Assembly: GCF_003113265.1 (NCBI RefSeq)
Contig: NZ_PUIV01000020.1
Location: 1-64,000 of the forward strand
DNA from: Methylosinus sporium
Lineage (GTDB): Bacteria > Pseudomonadota > Alphaproteobacteria > Rhizobiales > Beijerinckiaceae
Reading direction: 5' to 3'
Length of the DNA stretch: 64,000 bases
Of the stretch, positions 36,326-64,000 are shown piece after piece; within the stretch, counting starts at the first letter, position 1, and every line of letters begins with the position of its first letter. Under the pieces are notes generated by a model. The model had not been told where the DNA came from and searched no databases. It worked only from the letters and a program-made list of their open reading frames with translations. Both the position numbers and the translations under genes were made by a program.

Positions 36326-36595
36326 TCAGCGATTATTGTTGCCGTTGTTGCTGCCGAGATTCCCGTTGCCGTTGTTGCTGCCGAAATTATTGTTACCGTT
36401 ATAGTTTCCGGCATTCGAGTTGCCGTTGCCGCCGCCGACGTTCGCGTTTCCGTTTCCGCTGCCGCGATTATAATTGCCATTGTTGCTGCCGACGTTTCCG
36501 TTTCCGTTTCCGTTGTTTTGAGCGAAAGCGGGAACTCCGAGCGCGGAGGAGCAAACCAGGCCGATAGCAAAAGCCAAAACGATTCTCTTCAGCAT
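36326..36595 (-). CDS. Secreted Asn/Gly-repeat protein
   Basis: 89 residues from ATG 36595; GGAGA lies 6 bases before it, a better spacing than for the ATG at 36601. The signal peptide MLKRIVLAFAIGLVCSS ends near PAFA-Q. The mature part (about 63 residues) is almost only Asn, Gly, Ser, Ala with period-two NG units (NNGNGNGNVGSNNGNYN). It may form a beta-solenoid or amyloid-like fibre; similar N/G-rich proteins are widespread in alphaproteobacteria without known function. An A/T-rich promoter region lies upstream. Confidence 0.65.
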   Translation of the reverse strand: MLKRIVLAFAIGLVCSSALGVPAFAQNNGNGNGNVGSNNGNYNRGSGNGNANVGGGNGNSNAGNYNGNNNFGSNNGNGNLGSNNGNNNR

Positions 36596-39880: not shown

Positions 39881-40012
39881 GCTCACCCTCCCCTTTAGGG
39901 GGAGGGTCGGCCGGCGATAGCCGGACGGGGTGGGGTTCAACAGCAAAAACTCGGGGCGTCACCCCCTCCCGATCGCCTTCGGCGCTCGACCTCCCCCCTC
40001 GAGGGGGAGGTG
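39881..40012. repeat. Composite REP-like element
   Basis: Starts with CACCCTCCCCTTTAGGGGGAGGGT (hairpin), then a GGCCGGC-GATA-GCCGG stem and GGGGTGGGG. After a 30-base spacer the mirrored half follows: CACCCCCTCCCGATCGCC, TTCGGCGCTCGACC and a palindrome CCTCCCCCCTCGAGGGGGAGG. An almost identical element is embedded in dnaE2 at 62949-63077. Confidence 0.85.
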
Positions 40013-59280: not shown

Positions 59281-60093
59281 GTGAGCGCCGCCGCGATCGA
59301 TGCTATGATGGCCGCCATGCTGCGCCATATTCCAGAAGAGCCAGTCTCCAACGCCGCGGTCTGGTGTCGACGCCTCGCGGTTTTCGCTCTGCCGGTGGCG
59401 GCGATCGCCGTGATTCTCGCGCGCTCCAATGCGGTGGAGCCGCAGGCGTCGCTCGCCGTGCTCGGCGGCGCGATCGTCGTGGCGCTCATCGCTCTGCTGC
59501 TGTTTTTCGCCGCCTGCGTCGTCATCTGGCAGGAGGGCCGGCGCGGATTGGGCGCGGCGCTGGGCGGCGCCTTTCTCGCCGCTTTGACGCTCTCCTATCC
59601 GGCCTATCTCGCCGTTCAGGCCGTGCGCCTGCCGGTGCTGTCTGATGTGTCGACCGACACCGCCGATCCGCCGCGTTTTTCCGCGTCCCGGGCGGCGGTG
59701 GCGGCGCGCGCCGGCTTCACGCCCGCCGGTTTCGACGCCGATCAGGCCGAGCGGCAGAGGGACGGCTATCCGGACATAGAGCCGATCGTCGTCGATCTCG
59801 AGCCGGACGAGGCCTATCAGCTGGTTTTGGAGACGGCCCAGAGCCGCGGCTGGCGGGTCATCGACCAGCGTCCGCCGGGCGGGCGCTCGGGCGTCGGCCA
59901 TCTCGATTTTCTCGATCGAGACCTCGTCATGGGTTTCGCCGACGACATAGCCGTGCGGCTACGTCCGCTCGCCGGCCAGACCCGCATAGACGTGCGCTCC
60001 GCCTCCCGCTACGGACGCCACGACTTCGGCGCCAATGCGAAGCGCATCCGGCAATTCGCGGAGGAATTGCAGGCGGGGCTGAATGAGAAATGA
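59281..60093 (+). CDS. DUF1499 family membrane protein
   Basis: 270 residues from GTG 59281; ATGs at 59305 and 59317 are alternatives. Three membrane segments (about 30-47, 58-80 and 90-114) followed by a periplasmic DUF1499 domain (about 160-265: YPDIEPIVVDLEPDEAYQLV, MGFADDIAVRLRPL, SASRYGRHDFGANAKRI). Function unknown. The stop is followed by the AGCGAGTAGCGAA motif also found near 33550. Confidence 0.85.
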   Translation: MSAAAIDAMMAAMLRHIPEEPVSNAAVWCRRLAVFALPVAAIAVILARSNAVEPQASLAVLGGAIVVALIALLLFFAACVVIWQEGRRGLGAALGGAFLAALTLSYPAYLAVQAVRLPVLSDVSTDTADPPRFSASRAAVAARAGFTPAGFDADQAERQRDGYPDIEPIVVDLEPDEAYQLVLETAQSRGWRVIDQRPPGGRSGVGHLDFLDRDLVMGFADDIAVRLRPLAGQTRIDVRSASRYGRHDFGANAKRIRQFAEELQAGLNEK

Positions 60094-60121: not shown

Positions 60122-61033
60122 CTATTCACCGCTCTTGAAATATCGCGCCTCCAATGTCGCCGGCCCCTCGCAGCGGGCGAGGCCGCGTTCGATCATATCC
60201 TCGAGATGCGCGAAGACGGAGAACGCCGCCGCCTTTTGGAGCCGCGCGTCGAAACCCTCGTAAATGCGTGCGACCATGACGGCGATCGTCTCGTCGCCGG
60301 CCTCCAGCCGCTCGAGAATGGCCGCCTCGCGCTGTTGGCGATGCTGGCGCAAGGCGCGCAAATAGCGTTGCGGCTCCTTCACCGGGCCGCCATGAGCCGG
60401 CCAATAGAGACGATCGTCGCGCCGGCGCAGCTTTTCCAGCGAGGCGAAATATTCGCTCATCGAGCCGTCCGGCGGCGCGATGACCGTGGTCGCCCAGCCC
60501 ATCACATGATCGCCGGTGAAGAGCGTCGCCTCCTCGGCCAGCGCGAAGCAGAGATGGTTCGTCGTATGGCCCGGCGTCGCGACGGCCTCTATGGCGAGGC
60601 TGCCGAAGCTCAGCCGATCGCCATCGGCGAGGAGATGGTCGGGCGCATAGCTTTTGTCATGCGAGGCGTCGAGGCCTGGGCCTGTGACCGAAAGATCGGG
60701 CGGCGGCGCATAGGGCGCGCAGCCGGCGATGGTCGCGCCCGTCCTCTCCGCCAGAATGCGCGCCGCCGGCGAGTGGTCGCGATGCGTATGGGTGACGAGC
60801 AGATAGCGCAGCGTTTCGCCCGCTATGGCGGCGAGCAACGCCTCTATGTGCGAAGCGTCCGCCGGGCCGGGGTCGATGATGGCCACCTCGCCTTCGCCGA
60901 GGATGTAGCTGCAAGTGCCCGTATAGGTGAAGGCGCCGGGATTGGGCGCGACGATGCGGCGCGTCAGCCGTGAAACGCGTTGCAGCGCGCCCGGCGGAGA
61001 GTCGAAGGTGGTGAGGAAATCATCTGGGGTCAT
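60122..61033 (-). CDS. Metallo-beta-lactamase-fold hydrolase (LACTB2-like)
   Basis: 303 residues. Metal site THTHRDHS (His82, His84, Asp86, His87), then ATPGHTTNH and FTGDHVMGW; the C-terminal winged-helix-like region (about 230-300) resembles LACTB2 endoribonucleases. Substrate not known. Its ATG overlaps the dnaE2 stop (60-61 kb, minus strand), so it is probably the last gene of the dnaE2 transcript. Confidence 0.88.
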
Positions 61034-64000
61034 TGAAAATTGCGTCCCTTCGGAATTGCTTCGCGCGCCTTGGCGCCGCGCGATTGCTCGAGCAGGCGCA
61101 GATCGGCGCTCAGATCCTCGACCTTCTGCGCGATCACATGGACCACGCCGGATTCGTTCTGCACGCGCCCTGTGACCGCGACAAGCCGCGCGCCTATGAC
61201 CTCGGGACGCTGGCGCTCGAACAGTTTCGGCCAGACGACGATATTGGCGATTCCCGTTTCGTCCTCGATCGTCATGAAGATGACGCCGCTCGCCGAGCCC
61301 GGCCGCTGCCGCACCAGCACGAGGCCGGCGACGCTCACGCGGGCGCCCTCCCTCACTCTCTGCGTGGAAGAGGGGGGCGGCCTGCGTTGTGCGAAATCTC
61401 GATGAAGCGCGGCGCCTGCTCCCTCTCCCGCTCGCGGGGGAGGGATGGGGAGGGGGCCGCCGCCGAGCGCGCTACAGGGCATGATTCCCTTCGCCTCGAG
61501 CCGTCCCCGCAGAAACGCCATCGGATGCGCCTTCAGCGATAATGACAGAAAGCGATAATCCTCCACCACCTCCGCCCCGAGCGGCATGGGCGGAAGGTTC
61601 GCGTCCTCCTCCTGCGGCGCGAAGGAGAGCGCGCGCAGCAGCGGCAGATCGTCCTTGTCGCCGGCGCGATTGAGCGCCTGCACGGCCCAGAGCGCGTCGC
61701 GGCGCGGCAGGCCGAGCGAGGCGAAGGCGCCGGCTTCCGCCAAGCGCTCCAGCGTCACCGGCTCGAGCCCGCCGCGCAGCCACAGATCGCGCACGGAATC
61801 ATAGCCGGCGCCGCGCTTCGCCACGAGCCGCTTCATATCCTCTTCCCGCAGGCCGACGATCTGGCGAAAGCCGAGCCGCACATCATGCGTCGCGCGAATA
61901 TCGCCGGCCATGGAGACATGGCGCGAATGCAGCGGCGTCGCCTGCGCGCGCGCCTCCAGCGCGCAATCCCAATCGGAGAAATTCACATCCACTTCATGCA
62001 CGCCGACGCCATGCTCCTGCGCATCGCGCACGATCTGCGCCGGGGCGTAGAAGCCCATGGGTTGCGCGTTCAGCAAGGCGCAGCAGAATACGTCCGGGTA
62101 GCGGCATTTGAGCCAGGCGGAGGCATAGACGAGCAGGGCGAACGAGGCCGCATGACTCTCCGGGAAGCCATAGGAGCCGAAGCCTTCGATCTGCCCCCAG
62201 CAGCGCTCGGCGAATTCGCGGCTATAGCCGCGCGCCTCCATGCCGGCGAGCATTTTGGCGCGGAAGGTTCCGATCGTGCCGACGCGCTTGAAGGTCGCCA
62301 TGGCGCGGCGCAGCCGGTCCGCCTCATCCGGCGTGAAGCCGCCGGCGACAATGGCGATGCGCATCGCCTGCTCCTGGAACAAAGGCACGCCGAGCGTCTT
62401 GCGCAGCACCTCCTCGAGCTCCGCCGAGGGAAAGGAGACCTCCTCCTTGCCGATGCGACGGCGCAGATAAGGATGCACCATATCGCCCTGAATGGGGCCG
62501 GGGCGCACGATCGCCACCTCTATGACGAGATCGTAGAATTCGCGTGGCTGCAGCCGCGGCAGCATGGACATTTGCGCGCGGCTCTCGATCTGGAACACGC
62601 CGATCGTGTCGGCGCGCGAGATCATGTCATAGACACTCTCCTCCTCCGCGGGGATCGACGCGAGGCGATGCACGACGCCATAGCGCTCGGCCAGCAGAGC
62701 GAGGCCCTTGCGCAGGCAGGTGAGCATTCCGAGCGCCAGCACGTCGATCTTCAATATGCGCAGAGCGTCGAGATCGTCCTTGTCCCATTCGATCGTCGTG
62801 CGGCCTTCCATGGCGGCGGGCGCGAGCGGGACGATCTCGTCGAGCCGATCGCGCGTGATGACGAAGCCGCCCGTATGCTGCGAGAGATGGCGCGGAAAGC
62901 CGGTCAGCTCGCGCGTCAATTCCAGCGCCTTGGCGAGGCGCGGCTCGCGCTCACCCTCCCTTTTAGGGGGAGGGTCGGCCGGCGAAGCGGTCCGGGGTGG
63001 GGTCATCCCCGAGACTCGGGACGTCACCCCCTCCCGATCGCCTTCGGCGCTCGACCTCCCCCCTCTAGGGGGAGGTGGTGACGCCTCTCCTTGCGCCTCT
63101 TCTCGCACGCCCGAGCCGCTCCAGACATTGTTCGAGAGTCGCGAAACGACATCGGCCGAAAGGCCGAAAGCTTTGCCGACCTCGCGAATGGCCGAGCGCG
63201 AGCGATAGGAGACGACGGTCGCGGTGAGCCCGGCGCGCTCGCGGCCATAGCGCGCGTAGATATATTGCATCACCTCCTCGCGCCGCTCATGCTCGAAATC
63301 GACGTCGATATCTGGCGGCTCGTTGCGCGCGGCGGAGACGAAGCGCTCGAAGAGGAGATCATGCTTCGTCGGATCGACTTCGGTGACGCCGAGACAGTAG
63401 CAGACGACGGAATTAGCGGCCGAGCCGCGTCCCTGCGCGAGTATGTCCTTCGAATGCGCGAAGCGGACAATGTCGTGCACGGTGAGAAAGTAAGCGGCGT
63501 AGCCGAGCTCTGCGATCAGCCGCAGCTCATGGCGTAGCAGCGCCTCGACCTGATCGGGAACGCCGCCTGGATAACGCGTCCGCGCGCCGTCTCGCGCGTA
63601 GAATTCGAGCGCCTCCTGCTCGCTGGAAAATCCCTCGCGCAGCTCACTCGGATAATTATGCGCCAGTGCGTCGAGACGGAAGGATAGGCCTTCCAGAAAG
63701 CGCGCCGTCTCCTCGATCGCCTGCGGCGCCTGCGTGAATAGTCGCGCCATTTCCGCTCCGCTCTTCAGCGAGCGCTCGGCGTTGGCGGAGAGCAGATAGC
63801 CGGCGTTGTCGAGCGTCGTCTTCTCGCGCACGCAAGCGAGAACGTCGGCGAGCGGGCGTCGCTCGGGGACATGCATGTTCGGCTCATTCACCGCGATGAG
63901 CGGCAGGCCGGTCTCGCGCGAGAGCGCGATGCGGCGGGCGAGGGCGGCGCGCATGTCGACGCCATAGAGCGCGGTCGCCGCCAGCCACATCCGCTCGTCG
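61030..64000 (-). CDS. dnaE2: Error-prone DNA polymerase DnaE2 (ImuC), 5' end outside the window
   Basis: About 990 C-terminal residues are present. C-family polymerase core with catalytic Asp residues in [25 protein letters not shown] and a later acidic residue near [43 protein letters not shown] and [26 protein letters not shown] are typical of DnaE2. A C-terminal OB fold ([18 protein letters not shown]) ends the protein. It acts in damage-induced mutagenic translesion synthesis with ImuA and ImuB, which are expected beyond the right edge. Two REP-like elements interrupt it in frame (62949-63077 and about 61346-61463). Confidence 0.93.
61346..61463. repeat. REP-like element inside dnaE2 (3' copy)
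   Basis: Paired C/G-rich palindromic ends: CCCTCCCTCACTCTCTG...GGAAGAGGGGGGCGG and GCTCCCTCTCCCGC-TCGCGGGGGAGGG-ATGGGGAGGGGG. The translated insert reads [15 protein letters not shown] and [15 protein letters not shown] and separates the conserved thumb/tail region from the OB fold. The reading frame stays open. Confidence 0.7.
62949..63077. repeat. REP-like element inside dnaE2 (5' copy)
   Basis: Nearly identical in layout to the intergenic element at 39881-40012: CACCCTCCC-TTTTA-GGGGGAGGGT, GGCCGGC, GGGGTGGGG, then CACCCCCTCCCGATCGCC, TTCGGCGCTCGACC and CCTCCCCCCTCTAGGGGGAGG. Within dnaE2 it encodes about 45 residues rich in Pro, Arg and Gly between NNVWSGSG and [15 protein letters not shown]. 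Confidence 0.85.

Follow-up and report, generated by a model that had tools for sequence, protein, structure and literature searches.

How does a palindromic repeat whose other copies lie mainly between genes come to be read as part of a conserved DNA polymerase, and what has become of it there? We address this question for the dnaE2 gene at the end of a 64,000-nt stretch of DNA from the methane-oxidizing bacterium Methylosinus sporium (the window; positions 1 to 64,000 of contig NZ_PUIV01000020.1), comparing the genome to which it belongs (G000; 3.79 Mb in 55 contigs) with nine other genomes of the genus, so that G000 to G009 make up a set of ten. The reading that we favor, with a probability of roughly 0.8, is that a REP-like repeat was inserted in frame into dnaE2 and tolerated, either before three Methylosinus species diverged or with later transfer of the gene among them, and that ectopic gene conversion subsequently rewrote it.

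Two units in inverted orientation, with a spacer between them, make up the element (Table 1), which measures 126 nt in G000 between flanking motifs, with borders set against the natural insert-free allele of G005. It lies where the first-pass annotation had placed it, with the borders given there (62949-63077) slightly off, and is translated in frame from the minus strand as ASPPPPRGG...PPPKREGE. A 151-nt stretch containing the element folds at -87.8 kcal/mol as RNA (z -3.7) and reaches z -3.4 as DNA, in each case beating 200 of 200 dinucleotide shuffles. The intergenic copy at 39.9 kb belongs to the same family, as had been claimed, although "almost identical" was a generous description of 89% identity over 132 nt in blastn (94% over 71 nt). 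Because these two copies match at a blastn E value of 1e-41 and the fold beats all shuffles, the element is beyond chance. Palindromic, paired and multi-copy in G000, the insert is indeed REP-like.

Table 1. Positions in the window of the dnaE2 gene, its two repeat-derived inserts and the related intergenic copy.
Feature	Position	Strand	Basis or remark
dnaE2 (DNA polymerase III alpha paralogue, error-prone type)	61030..64000, on to contig position 64428	-	Pfam; genome match
Second in-frame insert, derived from a different repeat; linker preceding the OB domain	61345..61470, approximate	-	18 own-genome matches, itself included
Paired palindromic REP-like element in dnaE2	62954..63079	-	Sequence; borders against the insert-free G005 allele; fold z-scores
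Left half-unit: hairpin CCCTCCC..GGGGGAGGG, second stem, then GGGGTGGGGT	62954..63003, approximate		Sequence reading; DNA fold
Right half-unit, inverted: CACCCCCTCCC, hairpin, then hairpin ACCTCCCCCCTCTAGGGGGAGGT	63026..63079, approximate		Sequence reading; DNA fold
Intergenic copy of the dnaE2 element's family, 89% identical	39881..40012	+	Same subtype as the G001 insert

The gene carrying the element has an open frame of 1140 aa (1132 residues from the likely Met) with the Pfam domains DNA_pol3_alpha, finger, HHH and OB, a set that also fits DnaE1. Its name was taken from the first-pass annotation and PMC3733652; the assignment rests on these polymerase domains, on a distinct DnaE1-like gene on contig C29 of G000 that is 31% identical to dnaE2 over the matched core, and on an ImuB homologue in the same genome, the combination that characterizes DnaE2 (ImuC). 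The closest DnaE2 among named records is that of Methylosinus sp. Sm6 (L062), at 80% identity.

The dnaE2 reading frame crosses the element without a stop, and the insert does add residues, as first noted: a net 38 (114 nt) against G005, however, and not about 45, because some of the old linker disappeared at the same place. Between fixed motifs the net gain over G005 is 114 nt in G000 and G002 and 117 nt in G001, where a further 15 nt are lost left of the insert. All three carriers have an extra AGAGG at the left of the insert, and at its right they lack a stretch of about 18 nt that GCGCG repeats bound in the G005 loop; the element thus took the place of some loop sequence besides adding to it. 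MITEs have terminal inverted repeats with a target site duplication; the element has long inverted repeats, and comparison with the G005 allele, in which the right flank is found to be deleted, shows no recognizable duplication. The insert is absent from the aligned DnaE2 of all 80 loci of other species, which are named records, many of them metagenome-assembled. In these 80 relatives the aligned slice of the recipient loop is 40-43 aa long and always has a Gly within the same 12-residue stretch; that piece is missing in the carriers, and for a loop of such near-constant length and constant Gly, tolerance alone is not a self-evident explanation.

When the protein is aligned by phmmer to chain 3e0d, a solved structure presumably from Thermus, the alignment is interrupted where the insert lies, in the interval from chain residue 516 to 534, which we take to lie in the thumb domain. 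An AlphaFold2 model from 30 sequences, middling overall (mean pLDDT 65.7, pTM 0.52), gives pLDDT below 50 for residues 435-494; the Pro/Arg/Gly-rich inserted loop is thus predicted to be floppy and is probably disordered in the protein. Removal of the element from RNA or protein in the manner of an intron or intein, which its strong hairpin might bring to mind, is hardly credible: the frame is kept through the element, the same element is intergenic elsewhere, an Rfam scan of the window at gathering thresholds returned a tRNA and nothing else, and Pfam matched polymerase domains only.

Is the gene that carries the insert still a working gene? It could instead be a decaying pseudogene in the carriers, its open frame an accident of high-GC DNA, and the strong variation of its C-terminal linker as well as the retention of just a C-terminal piece of chromosomal dnaE2 in G006 would agree with decay. 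We consider this very improbable, since about 1,130 codons are free of stops in three carrier species, the PDIDVDF motif is unchanged, and dN/dS between carriers (G000/G001 0.138, G000/G002 0.128, G001/G002 0.135) is lower than in pairs with insert-free species: other dnaE2 pairs range from 0.158 to 0.218, the lower value being that of G000 against insert-free G005, whose dnaE2 is 92% identical to the G000 gene. ImuB is likewise stop-free in the three insert carriers (G000, G001 and G002). With an intact frame and a dN/dS of about 0.13, dnaE2 with its insert is under purifying selection and, judged from its sequence, still looks functional; the check for a pseudogene thus gave no sign of one.

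Within the insert the pattern is different. Over 47 codons that include the insert, G000 and G002 differ at 7 of 141 positions, with dN and dS both about 0.05 (0.051 each); because the two are about equal, no constraint at the protein level is visible on the insert. Its 2 synonymous changes at 40.5 sites compare with about 8.7 expected from the rate of the gene (binomial P 0.004), a small-sample hint of homogenization, or of selection on the palindrome at the DNA level, rather than neutrality.

Among the ten genomes the insert is present in dnaE2 of G000, G001 and G002 and absent from that of G003, G004, G005, G007, G008 and G009; since two other Methylosinus genomes share it with the window, the insertion is not recent. 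The inserts of G000 and G002 are 94.6% alike, whereas that of G001 is 87.6% identical to both and 96.9% identical over 130 nt to the 39.9-kb copy of the window (96.2% in another alignment). What distinguishes the G001 insert from the others is confined to the spacer and one half-unit; indels of +2 and +1, which sum to three, shift the frame in which the middle of the G001 insert is translated. Ectopic gene conversion between the G001 insert and a copy of the 39.9-kb type is probably the simplest reading of these sequences; we infer both that conversion occurred and that it ran toward the coding copy. The match to the 39.9-kb subtype over the whole length of the G001 insert would also be expected if this were the product of a second, independent insertion of the other subtype, which is quite unlikely because both flanks, with the extra AGAGG on the left and the shortened linker on the right, are common to G000, G001 and G002.

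The distribution of the insert is in conflict with one simple gain. A tree from 7234 columns of flanking sequence groups insert-free G005 with G001 and G002, apart from G000 (support 100), in agreement with a dnaE1 tree that leaves out G002 (98) and a TruA tree of six of the ten genomes (96), whereas the dnaE2 tree joins the carriers, with a support of 100 when linker columns are included and 53 when they are not. We therefore rejected a simple species history for the insert; because the trees conflict, either the insert or its lack in G005 has probably been moved by recombination.

Following the favored reading, a non-autonomous paired REP-like repeat, brought in by some mobilizing enzyme, would have entered the DnaE2 loop at the cost of about 18 nt of the original sequence, before the three Methylosinus species diverged or at a time from which it could pass between them with the gene. 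About 43 repeat codons would now encode the Pro/Arg/Gly-rich, probably disordered loop. The insertion would have survived as its net length keeps the frame, that frame has no stop and DnaE2 tolerates the addition; coding and intergenic copies would later have swapped sequence by ectopic gene conversion. DnaE2 is dispensable in normal growth. A tolerated insertion is the most likely reading, and a regulatory or mutator role for the insert would be hypothetical. If conversion is the correct account of G001, selfish repeats go on editing a protein after they have been inserted into it.

To what extent is the dnaE2 copy exceptional within its family? There are at least 31 blastn matches to the element at no fewer than 28 distinct places in G000, partial ones included; 3 of the 31 are second pieces or opposite-strand readings of places already counted, and the count is a lower bound from 40 scored candidates of 68. 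The element is found in nine of the ten genus genomes (none in G007), with 31 matches in G000 and 35 each in G001 and G005. In a 60-genome sample of the family, with at most 14 candidates scored per genome, matches with an E value of 1e-10 or lower turned up in at least 5 genomes, of which two belong to the genus. Ten plasmid records match at 74-87% identity, 2 from Methylosinus and 8 from rhizobial genera, and the element lies at 59618-59741 of the Methylosinus trichosporium OB3b plasmid NZ_CP023738.1, with the same position on a contig of G009.

The search of the genome for further copies in genes, which the first-pass annotation had proposed, left dnaE2 as the only in-frame case. Places were classed by the codon score of their flanks (trained on 19 ORFs of the window) together with reading frame; 26 of the 28 could be classed, the other two sitting at contig ends, and among the matches listed the dnaE2 copy is the only one of the 26 whose flanks are coding in a common frame that stays open across the element. 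Four other matches have their best flanks in one frame: in three of them (L011, L018 and the 39.9-kb copy) a flank contains stops; in the fourth (L149, a 36-nt match) the flanks contain none, yet no frame of 200 aa or more spans the match. We did not accept lists of spanning ORFs as proof of intragenic copies, long spurious frames being common in GC-rich DNA. Translations place two candidates before the start of a conserved gene (L012 and L014; the gene downstream of the former we take to be uvrA-like) and show no recognizable protein for a third (L008), and all three were rejected as intragenic copies. When all six frames of 24 near-full copies, drawn from several genomes, are considered, 58% are free of stops, against 49% for the shuffled element, so reading through such an element is easy and unremarkable. 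A count of 16 among these 24 copies with an open dnaE2 frame was discarded because frames had been counted from each match's own end and were out of register.

The first-pass annotation had labeled the insert the first of its kind in dnaE2, and the gene does hold a second, different repeat-like insert (Table 1). This other repeat occupies the linker before the OB domain in four genomes (G000, G001, G002, G004), and in G007 the linker holds a different palindrome; fold z-scores there are -8.6 (G007), -5.3 (G004), -3.3 (G001), -2.2 (G000) and -1.6 (G002); as background, none of 22 windows of the insert-free G005 dnaE2 reaches z -3, the lowest being -2.4. The second insert of the window is thus weakly palindromic (z -2.2), yet has 17 other matches in the genome.

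Of the 80 named-record DnaE2, 6 (L024, L041, L045, L056, L061 and L094) have palindromic inserts, defined as being at least 20 aa long with a fold z no higher than -3. Inserts in the C-terminal tail stand outside this count (L068, z -3.5; G150, z -3.3), and, besides the second insert of the window, two repeat-looking cases fell below the palindromic threshold (L023, z -2.2 and -2.6; G102, z -2.2). Parts of the inserts of L023, L045 and L061 recur elsewhere among the fetched loci. In a sample of 150 genomes of the order, 117 have a DnaE2-level match, G000 included; 29 loci of 28 of these genomes were fetched, chosen for a long, split or shortened match and hence not blindly. Strongly palindromic inserts, so called by fold score and not by copy number in their genomes, were found in nine of the 117 (G041, G050, G054, G070, G098, G129, G137, G151 and G182); the G000 insert is not counted among the nine, which include two pairs sharing a genus.

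For DnaE1 the same sample provides 138 rows, made up of 129 that reach the C-terminus and 9 of 16 partial ones, with 7 short-open-frame rows left out; inspection covered 11 rows with a net gain of at least 21 aa, 5 with 15-17 aa and 9 partial ones. No palindromic insert is present among the 11 with the larger gain. The stronger statement that DnaE1 has none was rejected, since among the further rows G040 has one, giving 1 of 138; this insert (L275) is strongly palindromic and in frame, and follows reference residue 829 (z -7.7). The difference between DnaE2 (9/117) and DnaE1 (1/138) has a Fisher P of 0.006, or 0.025 with same-genus pairs counted once. In 30 of the 80 named-record genomes (most of the tagged ones included, L094 left out), 26 near-full-length DnaE1 matches show no large gain in span. 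ImuB was found in 70 of the 80 loci, one with a palindromic insert (L083, Azospirillum brasilense; 29 aa after reference residue 170, z -8.8), and the difference between DnaE2 and ImuB (6/80 versus 1/70) is not significant (P 0.12).

These counts bear on whether the insert could be adaptive, the added loop altering DnaE2 processivity, fidelity or partner binding and being kept by selection; a mutator idea for REP-tagged repair genes was raised in PMC3733652. Both the excess over dnaE and the near-constant length of the loop that was replaced would fit such a role. We nevertheless regard it as unlikely, given that dN equals dS in the insert, that a shifted frame in the middle of the G001 insert has not cost that genome the gene, that sites and palindrome sequences differ between species, and that ImuB also carries one such insert and does not differ significantly from DnaE2. 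A broader proposal, doubtful at present, is that in Rhizobiales DnaE2 acts as a permanent acceptor for coding palindromes: palindromes differing in sequence would be taken up repeatedly in the same few loops, remain in frame and then be rewritten by conversion with intergenic copies; if it were true, a mutagenic polymerase would be varied by the genome's own repeats, a route by which the mutation machinery could be diversified.

To which known class of repeat does the family belong? It has the general properties of REPs and paired REPs, with short, palindromic, dispersed and mainly intergenic copies in large number. REPINs take the form of two inverted palindromic units with a spacer, and the Methylosinus element shares this form. 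Unlike in the REPIN/RAYT system, however, no match to Y1_Tnp (PF01797) was found in five of the ten genus genomes searched (G000, G001, G004, G005 and G006), despite the 31 to 35 element matches in G000, G001 and G005; G000 therefore appears to lack the enzyme that would define the system, which may have been lost or may be very divergent. Rickettsia palindromic elements (RPE) are palindromes some 150 bp long that stand in frame within unrelated genes and lengthen the proteins by extra peptide segments. The likeness to them drawn in the first-pass annotation holds for the mode of insertion: the repeat stands in frame in a gene that appears to stay functional and is absent from the 80 relatives. 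It does not extend to frequency, with one of 26 classed places in a gene here and nearly half of the 44 first-reported RPE in genes according to the part of PMC10969869 consulted.

The closest precedent is PMC3733652 (2013), whose sections on REPs describe members of the CGTC and GTAG superfamilies inside coding regions, many of them in replication or repair genes, and name dnaE2, tRNA pseudouridine synthases and dnaE in Rickettsia conorii as carriers. The CGTC REPs are characterized there as mainly alphaproteobacterial, without association to transposase genes, and as having an unpaired CGTC (or TGTC, CCTC) end, a stem of 8-9 bp with A-T nearly always in the first two pairs, a loop of 4-5 nt and a CCA-like tail. 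Like those intragenic REPs, the Methylosinus repeats are short palindromes, mostly intergenic, often paired and sometimes wholly within genes; unlike them, they are GC-rich, form a two-hairpin unit and have no constant GTAG or CGTC tag. GC-rich stems and the two-hairpin unit set the family apart from the CGTC superfamily: CGTC occurs at the same spot in both copies of the window but is absent from the dnaE2 inserts of G001 and G002. The GTAG superfamily, which has a GTAG tag at one end, does not fit either, since neither GTAG nor CTAC occurs in 62949-63077.

The first-pass annotation knew of no such insertion described for this group, and this stands to the extent that the main text of PMC3733652 has no match to "methylo" and hence no Methylosinus or Methylocystis case; intragenic REPs as such, including in dnaE2, are known from that paper. 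The text of PMC12306157 available to us has no match for "intragenic" or "in-frame", and the accessible text of two methanotroph genome papers (PMC7285482 and PMC3794950) uses "palindromic" only for CRISPR and oriC. A title and abstract search found no report of REPs in Methylosinus genes, weak evidence of absence given that subscription journals were mostly uncovered. The kind of event is thus known. An insertion shared across species and its rewriting by another copy are absent from the sections on REPs in PMC3733652 that we compared, and the points of interest added here are the probable rewriting by conversion, together with a measured, non-blind excess of inserts in DnaE2 over DnaE1. The case can be traced through three species, with a palindromic repeat inside a conserved polymerase fold and a natural insert-free allele for comparison, and the order-wide counts make testable the remark in the same sections that repair genes are frequent REP carriers, with DnaE2 exceeding its replicative paralogue.

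Further observations concern the surroundings of dnaE2 in the genus. An SOS box (GAACN7GAAC) within 160 nt upstream was seen in G007 only, among 11 dnaE2 genes of which one (G004b) is a fragment. Other REP-like hairpin repeats stand directly upstream of dnaE2 in G002 (L133), G004 (L135) and G003 (L140). The piece of chromosomal dnaE2 found in G006 lies at G006:C5:3702093-3702452 (L127, L143), and contig C3 of that genome (L141) holds a dnaE2 of a second, plasmid type with imuB. Matches to the second-type imuB in G005, G006, G008 and G009 all have an in-frame TGA.

Elements of the same family also reach another gene, which we take from its motifs to be truA. In G001, G002, G005 and G004 (L171, L172, L173 and L175) one lies between the likely start of TruA and its conserved body, the start being placed before the element because no ATG occurs between element and body; in G000 and G006 (L174 and L176) there is a short, remnant-like in-frame piece, SPPPPEGEGE or similar. 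TruA was read in six of the ten genomes, its motif being unmatched in the other four. Elsewhere in the window, direct repeats about 70-76% alike follow one another every 27 nt at positions 36332-36520, perhaps encoding a repeat protein.
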